Positions 1-37,417 of a stretch of 64,000 nucleotides of DNA are shown here, one piece after another. The notes beneath the pieces were generated by a model that was given only the letters and a program-made list of their open reading frames with translations, did no database searches and had not been told where the DNA came from. Position 1 is the stretch's first letter; each line of letters begins with the position of its first letter. A program made the translations under genes and the position numbers. This DNA is from Clostridiales bacterium (lineage in GTDB: Bacteria; Bacillota; Clostridia; Oscillospirales; Oscillospiraceae): NCBI GenBank assembly GCA_902362775.1, contig CABIXV010000001.1, positions 574,654-638,653 of the forward strand, given 5' to 3'.

Positions 1-46
1 GGTCCCCGGCCTTCTGCCTGGGGATGACACAAATAAACTTCTTCAT
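1..46 (-). CDS. N-terminal fragment of an unidentified protein, cut by the window edge
   Basis: On the minus strand an ATG at 46 opens a frame that runs off the window, giving MKKFICVIPRQKAGD. A weak AAAGGA lies 10 nt upstream of the ATG; a stronger AGGAGG is about 29 nt away, so the true start could be further upstream in the same frame. The gene would be divergent from the CARF-HEPN gene, with about 165 bp of shared upstream DNA. Fifteen residues are too few to assign a family. Confidence 0.4.
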   Translation of the reverse strand, partial: MKKFICVIPRQKAGD

Positions 47-150
47 GGGAACGCGGTCCTTTCTGTTTGATCTTTCCTCCTGGCTCCAATTACGGAGCCA
101 TAACGGGCCATTTTTACATATTGTAGCACACATCCTCTCCGTTTGACAGA

Positions 151-239
151 CCTATCCGGCCCTTCTTCTCCCCTATCCGGACATTTTTTTACCAGAGAAG
201 CGGGATTCCCTTGTTCCAAAGATGTTGGGATGCTATAAT
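151..239 (+). promoter_or_regulatory. Promoter region of the CARF-HEPN gene
   Basis: An extended -10 element TGCTATAAT lies at 231-239, 44 nt before the chosen ATG at 283. The -35 area TTGTTC (211-216) is poor, as is usual with an extended -10. Two direct copies of CTATCCGG sit just upstream, at about 152 and 173. This promoter is why the start is placed at 283 and not at the in-frame ATG at 211, which lies upstream of it. Confidence 0.6.
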
Positions 240-282
240 AATTATGATTATTTTCCGGCGGAAGCTAAAAGGGAGTGTCCCC

Positions 283-2166
283 ATGTCCACACGGATCATC
301 AGCTTTTTCAGCGATCTGCGCCCTGGCCTGACCGAACGTTTATACCGCTATCCCGACCAGCAGGGCCGGCCGCCCCTGTCTGGAGCTCACACGAACGAGG
401 CTCCGCTCTACTATTTGCTGACCACCTTTGCCCCGGTGGATGAGATCCTGTACCTGCGCACCCGCCAAGTAAGGGAGGACCAGGTGGACTGCGGCCGCGA
501 GGGATCTCTCACTGCTGAGGAGTACCTCCAGAAGCGGGTGGCCCGCTTCTGCCAAGACCGGGAGCTGCCCCAGCCCCAGATGACGCCCCGAGACTACGAC
601 CCGGCCAATCCGAACATGGAGCAGGCCCTCCGGGCCCTGCTGACCGACATCCAGCCCAGGGACCGAATTTATTTGGATGTGACAGGCGGCCCCCGGAACG
701 TCAGCTTTCTTATGCTGCTCCTCACCCGTGCTCTGTCCTATAAAAACTGCTCGGTGGAGCAGGTGGTATACAGCAGCATCGTCAACGGCCAGAACGCGGT
801 GGTGGAGCTGGCCAATGTGCCCCAGCTCTTTGACATCATCAACGGTCTCCATGAGTTCACCTCCTTTGGCAGCGCCGACACTCTGGTACGGGTGCTGGCC
901 CAGGACCCCGCACCTCAGGTACAGGACCTGATCCGTGACCTCCAGGCCTTTACCGAGGCCATCCGCCTGTGTCGGGCGGACCTGGACCTTCTGGAGCAGA
1001 TGCTTGCCGACCTGAACCGCGACCTGGACCGGTGTGGAGCACTCCAGGGCAGCCACCCCCTGTTATCTGCTCTCCTCCCTGTCTTTCGGCAGGAGCTGGG
1101 CTTTGGCGACCGGAAGCTTACCATCACCGGCCTGGTCCGCTGGTGCGCCCAAAACCGGATGATCCAGCAGGCTATGACCATCTATAATGAGCATCTGGCC
1201 CACGCCATGATCCAGGGGGAGACCCCCTATCTTCTGGTATCCCCTGATGCCAGGGAGCTGCTGTCCCGTGAACCCTTCTACGCCAAATCCCAGAGAGAGG
1301 TCACCGACTCCGACTGCTTCCAGAGCTTCTCCTACCATCTGGTGGGCGAGCTGGAGCGCTGGGCCCTTTCCAACGGAAACGCCCCCTTCCCCAAGCTCGC
1401 CGGAGCAGAGCGACGGCAGGCCCTCCAGCGGGCCCTGTCCCAGCCGGAGACGCGGGTGGCCCTGATGGTAGAGGCGGCCGCCGACCCGGTGGAGGGACAG
1501 GCCGTTCCCCCCGCCCTGCCCTGCCTGCCCGCGGATAGTCAGGCTTTGGTCCACCTTCTCCGGGCCCTGTTCCAGTCCCCTGGACAGCGGCGGACCCGAG
1601 AGGGCAGCTTGTCTTATCTGGCCCAGCAGGACCAGTTGGATCTGGCTCTGCCAGTGCTTCAAAAGGACTGGAAAAAGGATAGCCAGATGGCCGATGTACT
1701 GGAGCGGCTGGCCGATCCCGGACACAATGGCGACCGTCTGCGCCGGATTCTCCTCACCCCGCTGTCCGCCGCCCCTTACCGCCAGGTGGTGCTGGACCTG
1801 CTGGACCGCCGGAAGCTCCGGCTCCGTCCCGGTGCGTCGGTGGCGGTCTTTGTCCGCCTGGCCCTGGACAACCAGTATGTCAACCTGATGCGCAACCAGA
1901 TCAACCACGCCTTGGGCGACTCCAGCAACCGGGGCAAGATGCACGCCCTGAACCGGCTGGGCTACCATGCCAACCTGGGCCGTCTCACCACCCAGGAGCT
2001 GGCCTCCTTCTTCCTGGAGTCTGTAGGCCGGCTGGAGCACTTGGGCCGCGAGGTCAAGGCCGCCAGCGGCGCTCCACTCCCCCAGCCGCCGGAGTCCCCA
2101 TCCCCCCAGGTCACAGAGGACCTTCTGCGCCAGCTCCAGGAAAAGGCCAATGCCAAGATGCTATGA
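283..2166 (+). CDS. CARF-HEPN protein, Csm6/Csx1-like (TM1812-type) putative cyclic-oligoadenylate-activated RNase
   Basis: 627 aa from the ATG at 283 (GGGAG seven bases upstream). The N-terminal ~190 residues look like a CARF ligand-sensing Rossmann fold: the segment around D132-V-T134-G-G-P-R138 follows a hydrophobic strand, as in the D-x-T-x-G-x-R loop of TM1812/Csx1 proteins, with an upstream TNEAPLYYLL segment. The middle is helical. Near the C-terminus R537-N-x3-H542 matches the R-x4-6-H active site of HEPN RNases. CARF proteins normally bind cyclic oligoadenylates made by Cas10 in type III CRISPR immunity and then cut RNA. No cas10, cas6 or CRISPR array is in this window, so the trigger must come from elsewhere or the protein has another role. 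It is followed by a strong terminator and is probably monocistronic. Family placement is by motif; the exact subfamily is uncertain. Confidence 0.72.
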   Translation: MSTRIISFFSDLRPGLTERLYRYPDQQGRPPLSGAHTNEAPLYYLLTTFAPVDEILYLRTRQVREDQVDCGREGSLTAEEYLQKRVARFCQDRELPQPQMTPRDYDPANPNMEQALRALLTDIQPRDRIYLDVTGGPRNVSFLMLLLTRALSYKNCSVEQVVYSSIVNGQNAVVELANVPQLFDIINGLHEFTSFGSADTLVRVLAQDPAPQVQDLIRDLQAFTEAIRLCRADLDLLEQMLADLNRDLDRCGALQGSHPLLSALLPVFRQELGFGDRKLTITGLVRWCAQNRMIQQAMTIYNEHLAHAMIQGETPYLLVSPDARELLSREPFYAKSQREVTDSDCFQSFSYHLVGELERWALSNGNAPFPKLAGAERRQALQRALSQPETRVALMVEAAADPVEGQAVPPALPCLPADSQALVHLLRALFQSPGQRRTREGSLSYLAQQDQLDLALPVLQKDWKKDSQMADVLERLADPGHNGDRLRRILLTPLSAAPYRQVVLDLLDRRKLRLRPGASVAVFVRLALDNQYVNLMRNQINHALGDSSNRGKMHALNRLGYHANLGRLTTQELASFFLESVGRLEHLGREVKAASGAPLPQPPESPSPQVTEDLLRQLQEKANAKML

Positions 2167-2182
2167 ACTATATTTCAAAGGA

Positions 2183-2222
2183 AAATGCCCCGGCTGTTCT
2201 TTTTGAACAGCCGGGGCATTTC
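2183..2222 (+). terminator. Intrinsic terminator of the CARF-HEPN gene
   Basis: A 15-bp perfect stem (AATGCCCCGGCTGTTC and its complement) with a TTTT loop is followed by a T-rich stretch. It ends 17-56 nt after the CARF-HEPN stop codon and separates that gene from the C39 gene. Confidence 0.85.
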
Positions 2223-2347
2223 TCTATGAAAAAAAGTTTCCTGCTTCACTTCTCTGACTGATCCTTCTCCGGATAGGGTAACTGTACGGTCCAGCGCCTG
2301 CCGGATATCCCCAGCGGCCCCAGGCCGCTGTTAGAAAGGAAGGATTT

Positions 2348-3202
2348 ATGATGAAAAACTCCCGTGTCCCGGCCCTCCTCCTGGCCATCAGTCTGATCAC
2401 GACCTCACTCCCCGCCGCCTTCGCCGCCGGTGAGGCGGCGGGCCAGAGTACCGCTTCTTCGGTCGTCCCACTCCTCTCCTATGCGGGGGTGGACGGCGCG
2501 TCCTCCTTCCTCCATCTGCTGGGCACCCTTTTGGGGCCCAACCCTCTGCTGGCCCTGATGCAGCAACCCTCCGAGCCGGAGGAAGCCCAGCCGGTGGAAC
2601 CCGCGGCCCCCGCCCTGCCCGACCGTCGGGTGATCGACACCCCTTACATCAGCCAGGTGACCCCGGTGTACGCCCCGGTAGGCTGCGAGCCCACCTCCCT
2701 GCTCATGGGGCTAAAGGCCAAGGGCTATGCCCAGGAGGTAGACCTGCGCTCCTTCCTGGACGCCATGCCCAAGCATGAGTACGACCCCGCCCAGGGCTTT
2801 GCCGGCTCCCCTTATCAGCCCGACCAGAGCAAACGCACCACCATCTACCCCGCCAAGCTGGCGGAGTACGGGCGCCAGTATGGAGACGTGGCAGATTTCT
2901 CCGGACGGTCTGTGGAGGAGCTCCAGAGAGAGCTGCTGTCAGGCAACCCGGTCGTGGTTTATGTCACTCTCTGGTGGGCGGAGCCCTACTACCGCACTTA
3001 CCGCATGGGGGACCATGAGGAGACCTTGCTGCGAAACAACCACGCAGTCCTTCTGTGCGGCTATGACAGCCAGACCGACCAGTACAATGTAGCCGACCCC
3101 TATAACGTGAAGTGTCAGGGGCAGGACTACTTTTACTGGCAGGACGCCTCTGTGCTGGAGCCTCTGTACCTGGTCCGGCAGCACGCCGTGGTAGTGCGGT
3201 AA
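2348..3202 (+). CDS. Secreted C39-like papain-fold cysteine protease/amidase
   Basis: 284 aa with a clear Sec signal peptide (about residues 1-27, ending AAFAAG), then a low-complexity Pro/Glu linker (about 73-92) and a Peptidase_C39_2 / YvpB-like domain. The catalytic triad is visible: C113 in VGCEPTS, H232 in NNHAVLLCGYD and D250 in VADPY. It probably acts outside the membrane on peptides or cell wall cross-links; the substrate is unknown, and proteins of this type are not the C39 domains of bacteriocin exporters. The start has AAGGAAGG upstream, with a second ATG directly after the first. It has its own upstream region, with a CCGGATAG motif at 2269, between two terminated units. Confidence 0.8.
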   Translation: MMKNSRVPALLLAISLITTSLPAAFAAGEAAGQSTASSVVPLLSYAGVDGASSFLHLLGTLLGPNPLLALMQQPSEPEEAQPVEPAAPALPDRRVIDTPYISQVTPVYAPVGCEPTSLLMGLKAKGYAQEVDLRSFLDAMPKHEYDPAQGFAGSPYQPDQSKRTTIYPAKLAEYGRQYGDVADFSGRSVEELQRELLSGNPVVVYVTLWWAEPYYRTYRMGDHEETLLRNNHAVLLCGYDSQTDQYNVADPYNVKCQGQDYFYWQDASVLEPLYLVRQHAVVVR

Positions 3203-3371
3203 CTTTTTTCCCAGCTCGCTTCTCTCCCTCATTTCCGTCCGGACAGTACCCTGGGCACCGGAAGCGGTGGGAAAAATAATTTTTCTGTTTCCCTTCTCTC
3301 CCGCTCCCGGAGCCGGACAGTACCTTGTAAGTCACAGCGGCCCGGCATCCGTCGAAAGAAAGGAGGTCGCT

Positions 3372-3614
3372 ATGGACCATTCTCCTCTGTCCCATTCCAT
3401 CGCCGCCATGGTTCGGCGCGAGAGTGTTCAGGCCCATCGGGAGCTGGACCGCCGGCAGGAGCAGCTCCAGCAGTTACTGGACTATAACCAGACCCACGAC
3501 CTGGACCCCAGGCTGACGGAGGGCTTTTACCGCTGCCTGCGGACCGCCCTCCAGGCTATGGACCTGGCCCAGTGGGACGTTCTTTCCCTCTCCTTTCTGG
3601 ACCCCCTCCCCTAG
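3372..3614 (+). CDS. Hypothetical 80-aa protein
   Basis: The ATG at 3372 is preceded by AAAGGAGG with ideal spacing; the same frame is open further upstream, but without a ribosome binding site and through the duplicated upstream motif. The product is hydrophilic, helical and Gln/Leu rich (LDRRQEQLQQLLDYN), possibly a short coiled coil. No known domain was recognised. It is followed at 79 bp by the 240-aa gene on the same strand and is likely co-expressed with it. The function cannot be stated. Confidence 0.6.
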   Translation: MDHSPLSHSIAAMVRRESVQAHRELDRRQEQLQQLLDYNQTHDLDPRLTEGFYRCLRTALQAMDLAQWDVLSLSFLDPLP

Positions 3615-3693
3615 TCAATGCCGGCCTCTGGAGGAGCCGCCGCCTGACTTCCCCCATTCCGTCCCAATATGATACATTAAGGAGGTTATAGAT

Positions 3694-4416
3694 ATGAAAG
3701 AAATTTTTTGGATCTCTCATTCTCCCATCCACCAGGAGGAGTACCAGGACCTCTGCCAGCGGTCCGGAGCGCCTCTTCTCATCCGGCCTATGGAGCCGGA
3801 ATCGCTGGAGGAGCAGCTCCATCTGCGGGGCAGCCGGGTGGAATCTCTGGTAGTCAATCTGCCTCTGCCCAAGGCCGCCCAGGTCTTCCGCACCGCCGCC
3901 GGCCGCTTTCCGGTCCTGTTCCGGGCCTCCCAGAGGATCGCCACCGGGCGCAAAGTCCCCGGCTACTGCAGCGGGCTGCCGGAAGACGAGTACGAAAAGC
4001 GGTTTGTGGGCTGGCGCAGGCTGCTCCGCTGCGACGTGGAGGAGCTTCCCGCCGCCCAGCTCTCCCTTCCCCCCGCGTCTGGCCGTGTCTTTCTCTGGCT
4101 GTCCCGCCACCAGCTCTCCCAGCCGGCCCTGGACGCTCTCCAGGTCGACTGCGGGCCAGTGACGGTCCTCCAGTACCCCCTCCCCATCCGGGATGTAGCT
4201 GACCTGCTCCCTCTGCTGCCTATGGCCGACCTTGTGGGGGCTGTTCTGCCCCCTCAGATGCTGTCCCAGCTGAAGCTGCTGCTTGGGGACACCCCCCTCC
4301 TCCGCTCCGATTTCTCCCCCCAGGACGGCTTCCATCGCTGGCAGACACTCCTCTCCTGCTCTGTGGAGTATGAGCTTTTACCTCAGTTGGTCCCTGAACA
4401 GCTCCACACCGCTTGA
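3694..4416 (+). CDS. Hypothetical 240-aa protein
   Basis: The start follows AAGGAGG at the right distance. The product is soluble, with alternating hydrophobic strands and helices suggesting an alpha/beta fold; features include an N-terminal KEIFWISHSP strand and a late ADLVGAVLPPQMLSQL segment. There are no transmembrane segments or signal peptide. No family was recognised. It lies between the 80-aa and 259-aa unknown genes, all in one direction with short gaps (79 and 44 bp), which suggests one transcription unit of unknown purpose downstream of the CARF-HEPN gene. Confidence 0.6.
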   Translation: MKEIFWISHSPIHQEEYQDLCQRSGAPLLIRPMEPESLEEQLHLRGSRVESLVVNLPLPKAAQVFRTAAGRFPVLFRASQRIATGRKVPGYCSGLPEDEYEKRFVGWRRLLRCDVEELPAAQLSLPPASGRVFLWLSRHQLSQPALDALQVDCGPVTVLQYPLPIRDVADLLPLLPMADLVGAVLPPQMLSQLKLLLGDTPLLRSDFSPQDGFHRWQTLLSCSVEYELLPQLVPEQLHTA

Positions 4417-4460
4417 TTCTATCCCTCTATCCTCATTTTTTGTATACAGAAAGGAGTTTT

Positions 4461-5240
4461 ATGATGAGAAACTACACCCAGGAGCAGAAGCTCCAGCTCC
4501 AAACTCTGATCAGTCAGGAGGCAATGCTGCCCGCCAAGCTGTTCAAGTACCTACGCTCCGAGGAGCATCTCCCTTCTCTGTTGGCCCTGGTGGATGTGCC
4601 CGGCTTTTCGGAGCCCCTGATGTGCTCCGTCCCCGCCAATCAGGTGGACCGGTTGAATAAGCCCGTGTCCATCCGGGACCTGCAGCCGGGCTTCCGGGTG
4701 GTCCTCCGCGGGCTTGAGGAAGACGGCAGCCTGACGGCCTCCCGCCGACGGGCCCAGGAGCTGATCTATGACCGCCTCTTCCTTCATCCCGACCGCCGCC
4801 AAGTCTACCAGGGCCGGGTAATGGGCATCTCCCCGCAGGGCTTCTTTCTGATGGTGGAGGATCAGCCCGCCATCCTCCTCCGGGAGTTTTACCGCCCCAC
4901 AGAGGGGCAGGAGGTCTCCGTGGGCGACCTGCTCCCTGTCTGTTTCGCCAACTCCTCTCCCCATCAGCGGCTCTGGTTCCGCTCCCCTCAGGATGAGAAC
5001 TACCTCAACTATCCCTTCCTGGAGGAGCTGGAGCCCGGCCTGATCTTCCCGGCACGTGTCGTGGGCACTCGGAACGCCTCTATTTTCTTCCAGATCTTTC
5101 CCGGCTTCAATGCCATCTCCCCCCGCCCGGATGGCTGGCAGGCGGCAGCGGGTGACCAGATCCTATTCCAGATCAGCGGTGTATCCCGGGATCAGGCCAA
5201 TCTTAAGGCCTGGGGCAGACCCCTGTGCCCCGTAGCCTGA
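4461..5240 (+). CDS. Hypothetical protein with two OB/S1-like segments
   Basis: 259 aa; ATG at 4461 (a second ATG follows at once) with AAAGGAG in front. After a helical N-terminus (about 1-55), two segments resemble S1/OB beta-barrels: about residues 110-165 (YQGRVMGISPQGFFLMV) and about 190-255 (PGLIFPARVVGTRNASIFF). S1 folds often bind RNA, but this reading is by pattern only. It is the third of four unidentified genes in a row on the plus strand. Nothing else indicates its function. Confidence 0.6.
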   Translation: MMRNYTQEQKLQLQTLISQEAMLPAKLFKYLRSEEHLPSLLALVDVPGFSEPLMCSVPANQVDRLNKPVSIRDLQPGFRVVLRGLEEDGSLTASRRRAQELIYDRLFLHPDRRQVYQGRVMGISPQGFFLMVEDQPAILLREFYRPTEGQEVSVGDLLPVCFANSSPHQRLWFRSPQDENYLNYPFLEELEPGLIFPARVVGTRNASIFFQIFPGFNAISPRPDGWQAAAGDQILFQISGVSRDQANLKAWGRPLCPVA

Positions 5241-5284
5241 ATCCCACACCCGGTGATGATTTGATTTGAATGGAGGTTTTTTAG

Positions 5285-5917
5285 ATGGATACACTTTACA
5301 CGCTGAAGGACCGGAATCAGCGCTACTATGCGGCCCAGGTCCCTGGCGGCCGGACCGACTGCCCAGACCGGGCCGACACGCTCACTCTGGATAAAGTCAG
5401 GGAAGTGATGAAGCGCCCTGCCATGGCCGGCAGCTGCTGGCAGATGGAACCCGCCGCCAAGACCAAGTCCACCCCCGCCCCTCTGCGGCCCTTTGACTGT
5501 TTCCCTACACCCAGGCCAGAGGTACAGGCGGGCTCCGCCCCAGCTCCTGTTCCTGCTCCGCCCTCGGATGGAGCCCCCTCTCCCTCTGAACTTCCGTCCC
5601 GTTCCGCCGTCCCCCTTTCCCCCGCACTGGGGCGGCTGGCCTCCTCCCTACGCGCCTTTTTGACCCAGCAAAAGGGGCATCTGGAGGCACGCCGGGACCA
5701 GCTCCGTGGTCGGAAGGATTCTCTGCTCCAACAGGCAGCAGCGAACCAGCTGACGGGGCAGGCGCTTACCCAGTTCTACCAGCAGCTCCAAAACACCCTG
5801 CTGGAGTCCGCTCAAGCGGAGCAGGACCTAGCCCTGGCAGTGGAGCTTCTGTCTGCCCCAGACGATAACCAACTGCTCCAGTCCCTCCAGCGGGCGCAGA
5901 AGGGAGGGGCAGCGTGA
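5285..5917 (+). CDS. Hypothetical protein with Pro-rich linker and C-terminal coiled coil
   Basis: 210 aa; GGAGG lies 9 nt before the ATG. Residues about 1-60 form a small compact domain (YTLKDRNQRYYAAQVPGG). Residues about 60-115 are a Pro/Ala/Ser-rich linker, and about 120-205 are strongly helical with heptad-like Leu/Gln spacing, probably a coiled coil. No known family. It is the last gene of the plus-strand unknown cluster and ends at a bidirectional terminator facing the XRE regulator. Confidence 0.6.
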   Translation: MDTLYTLKDRNQRYYAAQVPGGRTDCPDRADTLTLDKVREVMKRPAMAGSCWQMEPAAKTKSTPAPLRPFDCFPTPRPEVQAGSAPAPVPAPPSDGAPSPSELPSRSAVPLSPALGRLASSLRAFLTQQKGHLEARRDQLRGRKDSLLQQAAANQLTGQALTQFYQQLQNTLLESAQAEQDLALAVELLSAPDDNQLLQSLQRAQKGGAA

Positions 5918-5937
5918 GCTTCGCCGGAGGAAGAGAA

Positions 5938-5974
5938 AAGGGCGTTTCCTCCAGTATCAGGAGGAAACGCCCTT
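5938..5974. terminator. Bidirectional terminator between the unknown cluster and the XRE gene
   Basis: A 15-bp perfect inverted repeat (AAGGGCGTTTCCTCC and its complement, 7-nt loop) sits in the convergent gap between the 210-aa gene and the XRE regulator. The A/T flanks allow it to work in both directions. Confidence 0.75.
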
Positions 5975-5997: not shown

Positions 5998-6450
5998 TCA
6001 GTTCTGTCTGTCCAGCTCCCGACGGACAGTCCGAGACAAGAGCTCCTGCCCTTCGGGAGAGCGGAGCACTTCTAGTACCATCGTCCGCACCAGCTCCTGA
6101 AAGGGAGCACTTCGCAGGAAGGAATCGAACACAGTTCCCTCTCCTCCCACAGACTGAGCGGAACTCCGAGGCTCCCGCCTGGGAGGGGGAGATTGGACCG
6201 GGTCCTCCTGGTACGCGCCTTCTAGCCAGCTTTCTTGACGGGTACGGTCGTCGCTCTCTCCCCGGAGGTAAAATATGGACACGCCAAAGTAGGCGGCCAG
6301 CTTCTCCTGCTGCTCCTGGTTGGGTGTTTGGCGGCCCGTTTCAAACTTCTCAATGGCGTTCTTAGGAAGGCCCAGAGCTGCGGAAAGGCCAGGCCGGCTC
6401 ATTCCCCGCTGGGTCCTCAACTCCTCGATTCGCTGTGCCAATGTGATCAT
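5998..6450 (-). CDS. XRE-family helix-turn-helix regulator
   Basis: 150 aa. Residues about 3-60 form a lambda-repressor-type HTH (LAQRIEELRTQRGMSRPGLS, then a recognition helix near KNAIEKFETG) followed by the common YFGVSIFYLRG turn. The C-terminal half is a Pro/Ser linker and a helical tail with no known effector domain. The ATG at 6450 is preferred over the one at 6456 because AGGAGGG is 8 nt upstream of the former and only 2-3 nt from the latter. It is convergent with the unknown cluster and may regulate itself or the inverted-repeat promoter at 6590-6630. Confidence 0.8.
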   Translation of the reverse strand: MITLAQRIEELRTQRGMSRPGLSAALGLPKNAIEKFETGRQTPNQEQQEKLAAYFGVSIFYLRGESDDRTRQESWLEGAYQEDPVQSPPPRREPRSSAQSVGGEGTVFDSFLRSAPFQELVRTMVLEVLRSPEGQELLSRTVRRELDRQN

Positions 6451-6630: not shown

Positions 6631-6770
6631 TGCTCATACCAGTGTCAAACGGTATTTCCCGCCAGAATAATAGCTGGGTGGTAAGGTGAACTATGAGCCC
6701 CCCTGACTTTTGAAACCGTTGGCATAGGAGAGCGGACAAATGACGTCTCTTTTGCCACAGGCATAAAAAG

Positions 6771-6990
6771 ACGTCGGAGCAAACGATATAACGTTTGCTC
6801 CGACTTGGAAAGGGCGGTTAAAATCGATATTTTTTCCCTGATAAAACAAAACTGCCGTGCGGCAGCCCCAAAGCGCAACCCAGCGCAAGCGGTTGCGCTT
6901 TGGAAGCGAGAAGCAGCAGAATGAGCGCGCGATGAGCTTTGTCCTGGAAGGAAAAAGCTCATCGCAAGCGATATGACGCTTGCGACGAGC
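6771..6990 (-). repeat. GC-rich hairpin repeats 3' of tRNA-Ser
   Basis: Three inverted repeats lie downstream of tRNA-Ser on the minus strand: GTCGGAGCAAA...TTTGCTCCGAC (about 6774-6811, followed by TTTTTATG on the minus strand), an AAAGCGCAACC-type hairpin (about 6868-6902), and a CTCATCGCAAGC...GCTTGCGACGAG hairpin (about 6958-6990). The first is a good intrinsic terminator. A closely related copy lies beside tRNA-Lys at 37384-37417. Confidence 0.6.
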
Positions 6991-7079
6991 TGGCGGAGAC
7001 GGTGGGATTCGAACCCACGTGCGGTTGCCCGCAAACTGATTTCGAGTCAGCCCCGTTATGACCACTTCGATACGTCTCC
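6991..7079 (-). tRNA. tRNA-Ser(CGA)
   Basis: Class II tRNA, 89 nt including the encoded CCA. Acceptor GGAGACG pairs with CGTCTCC, the anticodon arm is GCTGA-CTCGAAA-TCAGT (anticodon CGA), there is a long variable arm, and the T-loop is TTCGAAT. It is read on the minus strand, with the hairpin terminators described at 6771-6990 following it. Confidence 0.93.
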
Positions 7080-8739: not shown

Positions 8740-9423
8740 TTATCCTCCCCGCTTTAGCCGGCGCAAAATCTCTGCTTCCACCCGGTCCCCGTACTTCATC
8801 CCCAGCAGAAAGAGAGCCAGGCCGCCCAGTCCGATAGGGGCCATAGCCCACAGCGGCAGCCGGAGGGAGGCGCCACCTAATGCGCTGGCGAACAGCAGGC
8901 CCCAAGGGCGGGCGCACAGCGCAATGAGCGCGAACCTGCGAAACGGGATCTCTGTCAGGCCTGCCAGGATGCACAGCACATCGTCCGGAAAGAAGGGAAA
9001 CAGGAAAGCCAGCAGCAGAAAGATATCCGTTTTCGCTCGAATCACGTCCTGGTAGCGGTCTGACAGCCTTCGGCTGACCAGCCGGTCAGCAAAATCTCTG
9101 CCCAGCACTCGGGCCAGCCAAAAGACCAGGAGGGAGCCGGCCATCACTGCCCCAAAAGTGAGCCAGAAGGAAGGCCAGGTACCAAAGAGCACACCCCCGG
9201 CCGCGGCGCTGATATTGCTGGGAATCGGAGCCAGTACCACTGACAGGAACTGGAGCAGGAAAAAAATCAGGTGTGAATAAGGAGCGAACCGGCGGATATA
9301 CTCCTGCAGCCCTTCTGCTGAGGTTGCTGCCTGGAAAAAGCCGCTTCGGTACAGGAACAGCCCTCCTCCCAAAAGGAGCAGCAGGGCGAGGACCAGGATC
9401 AAACTCTGCTTTTTCTTCTTCAT
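8740..9423 (-). CDS. TVP38/TMEM64 (DedA-superfamily) membrane protein
   Basis: 227 aa. A first transmembrane helix at about 8-25 is followed by the VTT-domain core: a loop with APIPSNISAAAGGVLFG (about 65-82), more helices, and FLFPFFPDDVLCILAGLT (about 140-157), the second re-entrant half. The C-terminus is basic. Such proteins act in membrane lipid handling or transport; the substrate is not known here. It is the last of the metF-side minus genes, 86 bp downstream of metF. Confidence 0.85.
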   Translation of the reverse strand: MKKKKQSLILVLALLLLLGGGLFLYRSGFFQAATSAEGLQEYIRRFAPYSHLIFFLLQFLSVVLAPIPSNISAAAGGVLFGTWPSFWLTFGAVMAGSLLVFWLARVLGRDFADRLVSRRLSDRYQDVIRAKTDIFLLLAFLFPFFPDDVLCILAGLTEIPFRRFALIALCARPWGLLFASALGGASLRLPLWAMAPIGLGGLALFLLGMKYGDRVEAEILRRLKRGG

Positions 9424-9509
9424 GACGACCGCCTTCTCCTGTGGTTTTCCTCATCCTACCACAGGAAAATTAGGATATCTGGTAGTTTTCCTTAAAAATT
9501 GTTAAAATC

Positions 9510-10376
9510 CTACACCGACCGGATGGAGGTCAGGCTGCCGGCAATTTGCTGGGCTACCGCGGGGTCATTCATGGTGTACAGGTGGATGCCCTCTACTCCT
9601 CCAGCAATGAGATCGGAGATCTGGTCAATAGCATAGGCGATGCCAGCCTCCCGCAGGGCAGCCGGATGGTCGCCATACCGGGCTAGGATACGGGTCAGCT
9701 TGCTGGGCAGGCTGGCGCCGCACATGGACACCATCCGCTGGATGGAGGACCTGGACAGCACGGGCATGATGCCGGCCTCAATGGGCACATCAATGCCGGC
9801 AATCCTGGCCCGCTCCAGGAAACGAAAGAAATCCTCATTGTCAAAGAACAGCTGGCTGACCAGATGCTGGGCCCCGGCATCCACCTTTTCCTTCAGGTGG
9901 CGAATATCGCTGACCAGGTCAGGGCTCTCCAGGTGTCCCTCGGGGTAGCAGGCGGCAGACACTCCGAAGTCGCTGTGGGCACGGATATAGGACACCAGAT
10001 CGCTGGCGTGGGCAAAGTCTGTCTTGGGTGGGATATCCGGATTCACATCCCCCCGGAGCGCCAGGATGTTCTCCACCCCTTCGGCCTTCAGCTCCTCCAG
10101 CAGCCGGTCCACGTCCTCCCTGCCAGCCGCCACACAGGTCAAGTGGGCCATGGCCGGGATGTGGTACTGGTTTTGGATCAGTCCGGCGATCTCCCGTGTA
10201 GACTGGTTCACCTGGGACCCTCCCGCCCCGAAGGTGACGCTAATAAAGTCTGGGTGGATGTCCCGCAGGCCGTCCAACGTCTTGTAGATGCTATCTACTG
10301 GGCTAGTCTTTTTAGGGGGAAACACCTCACAGGAGAAAACCGTGCGCCCCTTCCCAAATAATTCTGCTAACTTCAT
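9510..10376 (-). CDS. metF: Methylenetetrahydrofolate reductase
   Basis: 288 aa, the normal length. It catalyses reduction of 5,10-methylene-THF to 5-methyl-THF for methionine synthesis or one-carbon metabolism. The N-terminal SCEVFPPKK, ISVTFGAGGS, NILALRGD and LVSQLFFDN segments match the FAD-binding TIM barrel of MetF. The ribosome binding site AAAGGAAGAG precedes the ATG. It follows the NUDIX gene by 30 bp and is probably in one operon with exoA and the NUDIX gene. Confidence 0.94.
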   Translation of the reverse strand: MKLAELFGKGRTVFSCEVFPPKKTSPVDSIYKTLDGLRDIHPDFISVTFGAGGSQVNQSTREIAGLIQNQYHIPAMAHLTCVAAGREDVDRLLEELKAEGVENILALRGDVNPDIPPKTDFAHASDLVSYIRAHSDFGVSAACYPEGHLESPDLVSDIRHLKEKVDAGAQHLVSQLFFDNEDFFRFLERARIAGIDVPIEAGIMPVLSRSSIQRMVSMCGASLPSKLTRILARYGDHPAALREAGIAYAIDQISDLIAGGVEGIHLYTMNDPAVAQQIAGSLTSIRSV

Positions 10377-10406
10377 GGAAATTCTCTTCCTTTCTGTTGA
10401 TGTGCA

Positions 10407-10928
10407 CTAGGCCAAAACAGAGGGCGTCAGGCTCTCCCGATGGTCCACGTAATATTCCACCACCTGGTGGGAAATGGCCGGATGGGCGTTTACCATAGTC
10501 AGGGCCTCCTCTGGAGTGACCCAGACCGCCTGGTCCACCTCCTGGGAGAGGTGGAACTCCTCCCGGTGGACGTTTGCCACAAAGCCGATCATCAGCATAT
10601 CCTTTTTTCCCAGCCAGTAGGTCCCGGTGAAGTGGAGCCCCCGGACCGCAAGGCCCAGCTCTTCCCCAATCTCCCGGGCCGCGCACTCCTCGGCGCTCTC
10701 TCCCGGCTTTATATATCCGGACACCAGCACATAGTGCTGGGTGGAGATATACCCCTGGCGCAGAAGGGCCACATTCCCCTCTTCGTCCACCGCCAGAGCG
10801 ATGATACAGGTGGAGAATATGTCAAATAGAGGCCGCTTACAGCGGTCGCACCATGGCATCAGCCCCTCGTCCCCGATCTCCTTTTGGACGGCTCTCGTCC
10901 CACAGTGTGGGCAGTATTCAAATCGCAT
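10407..10928 (-). CDS. NUDIX hydrolase with N-terminal zinc ribbon (NudC-like)
   Basis: 173 aa. Cys pairs CPHC and CDRC (about residues 6-31) form a zinc ribbon, followed by a Nudix box from GYIKPGESAEE to REIGEELGL (about 91-113) matching G-x5-E-x7-REUxEExGU. The arrangement recalls NudC NAD(H) pyrophosphatase / RNA deNADding enzymes, but the protein is shorter and lacks an obvious SQPWPFP motif, so the substrate is open. Gaps are 24 bp from exoA and 30 bp to metF. Confidence 0.82.
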   Translation of the reverse strand: MRFEYCPHCGTRAVQKEIGDEGLMPWCDRCKRPLFDIFSTCIIALAVDEEGNVALLRQGYISTQHYVLVSGYIKPGESAEECAAREIGEELGLAVRGLHFTGTYWLGKKDMLMIGFVANVHREEFHLSQEVDQAVWVTPEEALTMVNAHPAISHQVVEYYVDHRESLTPSVLA

Positions 10929-10952
10929 GGCGTTTCCCTCTCCGTCTTAATA

Positions 10953-37305: not shown

Positions 37306-37417
37306 AAGTCGGAGCAAGCGGTTGCGATTTGGAGAGGATGAGCAAGTGGGCGGGGGGATAACGCTTTTTGCACACACATAAAAAAGCGTCGGAGCAAAGA
37401 GAAACTTTGCTCCGACG
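37306..37417 (-). repeat. Hairpin repeats 3' of tRNA-Lys, related to those after tRNA-Ser
   Basis: On the minus strand GTCGGAGCAAAG/CTTTGCTCCGAC (about 37388-37416) followed by GCTTTTTTATG is an intrinsic terminator for the tRNA array. A partial second unit (GGAGCAAGCGGTTGCGATTT, about 37310) is further on. Both share sequence with the 6771-6990 repeats. Confidence 0.6.

Follow-up and report, generated by a model that had tools for sequence, protein, structure and literature searches.

The DNA analysed here is a stretch of 64,000 nucleotides (hereafter the window) from contig CABIXV010000001.1 of a Clostridiales bacterium of the Oscillospiraceae. Near its left end lies a gene, 283-2166, identified by its sequence as a CARF-HEPN effector of the Csx1/Csm6 kind that type III CRISPR systems employ, with predicted ribonuclease (RNase) activity. 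We consider it probable that this effector RNase sits on the outer margin of a type III-D locus lying mostly to the left of the window. The first-pass annotation, made from the letters alone, had described an orphan gene that could act on its own. This orphan reading is not supported, since the first 46 bases hold the start of a CARF-only gene, a nearby gene encodes a protein of the family called 'WISRH' below, and all seven relatives of the effector in related genomes occupy type III loci. The gene appears solitary mainly because the window breaks off at the start of a partner gene with CRISPR links; a CRISPR effector can look like an orphan simply through the position of a window boundary.

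283..2166, plus strand: predicted CARF-HEPN ribonuclease of the Csx1/Csm6 type, 627 amino acids (CARF at about 1-185, helical linker, HEPN motif R537-N-x3-H542).

The open reading frame (ORF) is uninterrupted over its 627 codons and its start, the ATG at 283, agrees with the N-termini of relatives. The CARF loop D132-V-T-G-G-P-R138 and the HEPN motif R537-N-Q-I-N-H542 were located in the one protein exactly as first described. The proposed kinship with Csx1/Csm6 RNases is upheld by profile searches, in which the PADLOC model PDLC01032 (Csx1/Csm6) matches residues 18-332 at E 3.1e-36 and two PADLOC CARF_HEPN models match at E about 1e-30, and by Foldseek, whose best match to the structural model is the Marinitoga Csx1-Crn2 protein bound to cyclic tetraadenylate (cA4; PDB 8y6z, 8y7g, 8y75). 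Pfam returned no family at E <= 1 for this protein, NCBIfam returned TIGR02221 alone at 31 bits, below its cut-off of 76.25, and a sequence search of solved structures gave a single chance match at E 1.5. Used as a protein-search query (P0001), the full-length sequence found one match, P0002, among the 7,997 best candidates scored, and its residues 110-330 found six. A further CARF-HEPN protein, P0006 (769 amino acids), carries a second CARF domain at its C-terminus according to PADLOC (residues about 600-765).

Conservation of the R-x4-H site among homologues had been set beforehand as the refuting test, and the site is kept throughout an alignment of 14 sequences (the window protein and a copy at 96% identity, together with five protein-search matches and seven proteins of related genomes). 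Residues G135, G136, R138, R537, N538 and H542 are invariant in all 14; the D132 position holds D in ten and E in four, the T134 position T in 13 and Q in one, and the N541 position N in 13 and A in one. Both hallmarks of Csx1/Csm6 are present, the N-terminal CARF domain and, in 14/14, the HEPN site. An inactive or decaying copy, a reading to which the divergent middle region with its low-confidence model might lend itself, is very hard to credit given the open frame, the intact active-site residues and the near copy in one other assembly, which is 96% identical, likewise 627 amino acids long and placed in a protein cluster of 228 member sequences.

The comparison of neighbourhoods proposed with the first annotation was run on the 400 genomes of the family to which G001, the source genome of locus L001, belongs; from a metF match this family is presumed to be that of the window. 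Profile A1 identified CARF-HEPN relatives in seven of them, all in type III loci, six of which are III-D. Relatives of Csx10, Csx7, Csx19 and the TIGR03986 RAMP protein are encoded in six stretches (L092-L097, with L132), while the seventh genome, G391, gave only a divergent cas10 and a csx7-like match. In L095 the NCBIfam match to TIGR03986 is above cut-off, the names Csx10, Csx7, Csx19, Cas6 and Cas10 being assigned below curated cut-offs; the RAMP gene is also matched by PADLOC Cas7_IIId (2.8e-82, in L081). Cas10 (PF22335) was detected in six of the seven genomes, the remaining one, G252, keeping the 3' part of cas10 only. The cyclase motif is found in every one of the six with a Cas10 palm (AGDD in five, DGDD in G391) and, elsewhere, in G282 (AGDD) and G317 (DGDD). 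Array-like repeats accompany six of the seven stretches, L096 having none by a crude exact-repeat method. Immediately after the CARF-HEPN gene comes a CARF-only gene in five genomes; in a sixth it lies about 1 kb off across array-like repeats and in G351 there is none. The N-termini of these partners read MKKFFTVIPLQ..., LKKFITFIPRQ... or similar. The sequences thus directly support the CARF-HEPN architecture, the conserved active-site residues and the type III context of the relatives.

Three observations on these loci may be recorded separately. At 3119-3776 of L096 (G252) the 5' part of cas10 has been lost, relatives of csx10, csx7, csx19, RAMP, CARF-HEPN, CARF-only and cas6 remain, and a WISRH gene lies directly upstream of the cas10 remnant. 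L098 (G391) encodes at 8779-10932 a CARF-HEPN relative of 718 amino acids with a longer N-terminus, the CARF loop DVQGGNR and the HEPN motif RNTIAH, alongside a divergent type III locus. A gene of about 272 codons, sigma-factor-like by weak NCBIfam sigma matches in L095, lies between CARF-only and cas6 in L092, L093, L095 and L096 and adjoins CARF-only in L098 and L129; its product is a CRISPR-linked sigma-like protein.

The window starts 282 bases upstream of the CARF-HEPN gene, and this short interval contains the following elements, listed with the repeat that follows the gene.

1..46, minus strand: start of a putative CARF-only gene, 15 codons and one base, MKKFICVIPRQKAGD..., cut by the window edge (translation; 33.6 bits on a position-specific scoring matrix).
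47..282, no strand: divergent promoter region of 236 bp between the CARF-only and CARF-HEPN genes, with two extended -10 elements.
128-120, minus strand: extended -10 TGCTACAAT, with a -35 CTGTCA from 149, upstream of the CARF-only gene.
231-239, plus strand: extended -10 TGCTATAAT, upstream of the CARF-HEPN gene.
2166..2238, no strand: strong inverted repeat directly after the CARF-HEPN stop (pair I2), likely a terminator.

Read on the minus strand, bases 46..1 give an ATG and 14 codons, MKKFICVIPRQKAGD. With five partner proteins as queries, 601 CARF-only relatives were obtained at E <= 1e-10, the best 120 of which were listed, and 68 distinct N-termini from 118 relatives were used for the matrix, the window sequence not being included. 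The 15 residues score 33.6 bits and known members go lower, for example to 25 bits. The fetched DNA, 1.53 Mb counting overlapping loci, gave 131,489 start codons to test, of which just the window start and seven known partner genes (16 to 49 bits, some occurring in several loci) exceed 8 bits. The left-edge gene has the conserved N-terminus of the CARF-only family (PADLOC PDLC01821, CARF2--CARF) and, judged from that N-terminus, is a probable member of this type III-linked family. The CARF-only model matches 13 of the 400 genomes; G351, where what it hit was the CARF-HEPN gene, was left out of the Fisher count.

The single-gene transcription first proposed for the effector, from an extended -10 promoter of its own, also stands: TGCTATAAT is in place, its -35 is weak, and the inverted repeat after the stop makes a single-gene transcript a reasonable prediction. 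The promoter is absent from the promoter-scan list, as is the repeat from the terminator-scan list. An independent promoter and a terminator-like repeat, in a neighbourhood with neither a recognised cyclase nor a recognised cas gene, would suit an RNase that acts alone, responding to the second messenger of a non-CRISPR cyclase or to some other stress signal. We regard this as improbable because both recognisable neighbours, CARF-only and WISRH, belong to type III-linked families and all seven CARF-HEPN relatives are in type III loci.

3694..4416, plus strand: tandem two-domain WISRH protein, 240 amino acids (hidden Markov model of five relatives; single-domain relatives beside type III-D loci).

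This second neighbour is the newer element of the finding, CARF-HEPN effectors being well known as a class. The hidden Markov model, built from five single-domain proteins of type III-D neighbourhoods with no window row (domain of about 120 amino acids), was run against the 916 window ORFs and matched 3694-4416 at E 1.8e-22, the next ORF scoring 0.17. The product contains two tandem domains (E 2.2e-9 and 2e-11). Pfam and PADLOC match neither this ORF nor WISRH at E <= 10, and the fold search with the WISRH model gave no match. In the 400 family genomes the domain is present in five (G098, G252, G291, G351 and G282), always about 2 kb or less from type III-D genes; the G282 contig stops just past its RAMP gene, at the expected place of CARF-HEPN. 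Four of the five are also CARF-HEPN carriers (Fisher p 1.7e-7; relatedness is not corrected for, and the profile contains four of the five). This A4 census profile combined both halves of the window protein with the WISRH rows of G098, G252, G291 and G351, G282 alone being new, and G098 and G252 are the two closest relatives and not independent. Homology to type III-D neighbours is thus directly supported by sequence for ORF 3694-4416 as for the left-edge N-terminus. The gene cluster adjoining the effector, first described as uncharacterised, turns out to hold this type III-D-linked gene, and the XRE regulator mentioned with it is probably unrelated.

Viral contigs gave no match for A1, P0001, ORF 3694-4416 or a WISRH protein, and phage records searched by tblastn none for P0001 or WISRH; plasmids gave none for WISRH and a single weak one for P0001, annotated csx2, in Persicobacter. 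The literature searched, supplementary files apart, contains no account of a WISRH family and no type III-D study in Oscillospiraceae, and WISRH is an undescribed family. It may bear some likeness to Csx16. It is conceivable, though rather unlikely, that tandem WISRH represents a type III-D family handling cyclic oligoadenylate, as a ring nuclease or messenger sponge, and forms with the divergent CARF-only and CARF-HEPN genes a three-gene control module mobile between III-D loci.

The rest of the window places these genes in a variable segment. At 9510-10376 lies a metF-like gene that shares up to 88% identity with those of metagenome-assembled genomes labelled Lawsonibacter or Oscillospiraceae; the scan kept 80 of 218 loci (best 88% identity, none from the same species). 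Within the first 20 kb, none of these 80 loci shows DNA similarity to the window before 7679, apart from L030, whose similarity starts in the XRE gene, at 6241. For this reason 1-5950 is read as variable DNA beside the XRE gene and tRNA-Ser (6991-7079). P0001 and six relatives have no match in the 80 loci, and a single-protein scan of named species genomes (30 pattern stretches) found no relative of P0001. Because relatives of the XRE regulator at 57-59% identity occur in L030 and L031, fetched as chromosomal loci around metF, this regulator is probably not part of the CARF-HEPN module. A CRISPR role was also considered for 4458-5240 and 5285-5917 and is unsupported: PADLOC matches neither at E <= 10, and at E 1e-3 the fetched loci contain no relative. 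Nor is such a role supported for the peptidase gene 2348-3202, which likewise has no relative there. This gene, between the CARF-HEPN and WISRH genes, encodes a cysteine peptidase of the C39-like type (PF13529, E 4e-23) whose start, by eye, resembles a signal peptide. A 35-nucleotide direct repeat, 83% identical, occurs at 6749-6783 and 37364-37398 with tRNA genes near both copies, the first of which overlaps a minus-strand terminator-like hairpin at 6773-6804.

Several observations weigh against the edge-of-locus assignment. No Cas10 was found among all 15 ORFs of at least 450 amino acids between 12000 and 64000. In tblastn, ten proteins of the L095 locus matched the CARF-HEPN gene only, with no RAMP gene; these searches covered cas10 and the L095 proteins, smaller cas genes of other subtypes not being searched gene by gene. 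A crude search (exact 22-mers, 50-90 spacing) detected no CRISPR array. The initial statement that no CRISPR genes were in sight therefore holds for Cas10-sized genes, III-D Cas relatives and arrays and fails for the left-edge CARF-only gene and 3694-4416. The CARF-only gene is visible over 15 codons only, and its divergent layout is seen in none of the seven relatives, in which CARF-only, when present, runs with CARF-HEPN. The closest relatives of the effector share 27-28% identity over the full alignment, and the predicted HEPN part of the model is a low-confidence fold (predicted local distance difference test below 50). In G021 the 19.9 kb examined contain a CARF-only gene but no recognisable cas gene, a sub-cut-off PF22335 match sitting on another contig; accessory modules can therefore stand apart. 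Finally, among 128 class-level genomes there is one copy of a distant WISRH relative, in G860 (L140 9637-9993, 28% identity), among housekeeping genes and with no cas relative in the surrounding 19.9 kb. Because of this copy, a strict link between WISRH and CRISPR was dropped.

Part of this evidence would also fit a detached accessory module, in which CARF-HEPN, CARF-only and WISRH lie away from the effector complex and respond in trans to a Cas10 encoded elsewhere in the genome, or are what is left of a locus since lost. We judge this an outside chance, clearly above the stand-alone RNase: the 64 kb to the right hold no core cas gene, the pair is divergent, G021 shows a CARF-only gene apart from recognised cas genes, G252 has lost the 5' part of cas10 with its effectors intact, and signalling between loci is proposed in PMC11229360, but type III cas genes are near all seven CARF-HEPN relatives. 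The edge-of-locus assignment, which we prefer, predicts that cas10 and III-D genes lie immediately to the left of base 1.

On that assignment we infer a cas operon to the left, the identity of the messenger, RNA cleavage by the effector and what its two partners do. A Cas10 complex guided by CRISPR RNA would sense foreign RNA, and the Cas10 palm domain would produce cyclic oligoadenylate, most likely cA4. The messenger would bind the CARF domain of a CARF-HEPN dimer, upon which the HEPN sites (R537/H542) would cleave RNA indiscriminately and the infected cell would be slowed or stopped. The divergent CARF-only protein, and perhaps the tandem WISRH protein, might sense, sequester or degrade the same messenger, the former as a ring nuclease or sensor, the latter as a further messenger-handling protein. 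Tied to type III-D loci in these gut bacteria, the WISRH family is a candidate further regulator of cyclic-oligoadenylate signalling.

In comparison with known effectors, the window protein shares with Csx1/Csm6 (PADLOC PDLC01032 and CARF2 clade models) an N-terminal CARF domain with the D-x-T-G-G-x-R loop, a helical linker and a C-terminal HEPN R-N-x3-H, with significant profile and fold matches. It differs in that the models cover its CARF and linker only (18-332), the middle at about 330-520 being divergent, and in that no cas genes are in view around it. The CARF-HTH core (HTH, helix-turn-helix) of Marinitoga Csx1-Crn2 aligns with it over 258 residues, but at 14-16% identity, and the window protein lacks the fused Crn2 ring-nuclease domain. 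Csx1 proteins are described as HEPN RNases activated by cA4 and Csm6 proteins as activated by cyclic hexaadenylate (cA6) in PMC11229360 and PMC12409355; cA4 is the likelier messenger here because the best ligand-bound fold matches are cA4 proteins. The ring nucleases Csx16 and Csx20 (PMC12409355) and Crn4 (PMC12830947) resemble WISRH in being small extra proteins of type III loci, some Rossmann-like. WISRH differs from them in having no Pfam or PADLOC match and no fold match in the searches given above, and its model is alpha/beta, whereas Crn4 is described as mainly beta strands. In related gut genomes the type III-D loci (L092-L097) comprise cas10, csx10, csx7, csx19, the TIGR03986 RAMP gene, CARF-HEPN and usually CARF-only and cas6. 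The window departs from them in its divergent pair, its tandem-duplicated WISRH and a cas operon that is not visible, but the CARF-HEPN relative, the CARF-only N-terminus and the WISRH-domain relative all recur in these loci.
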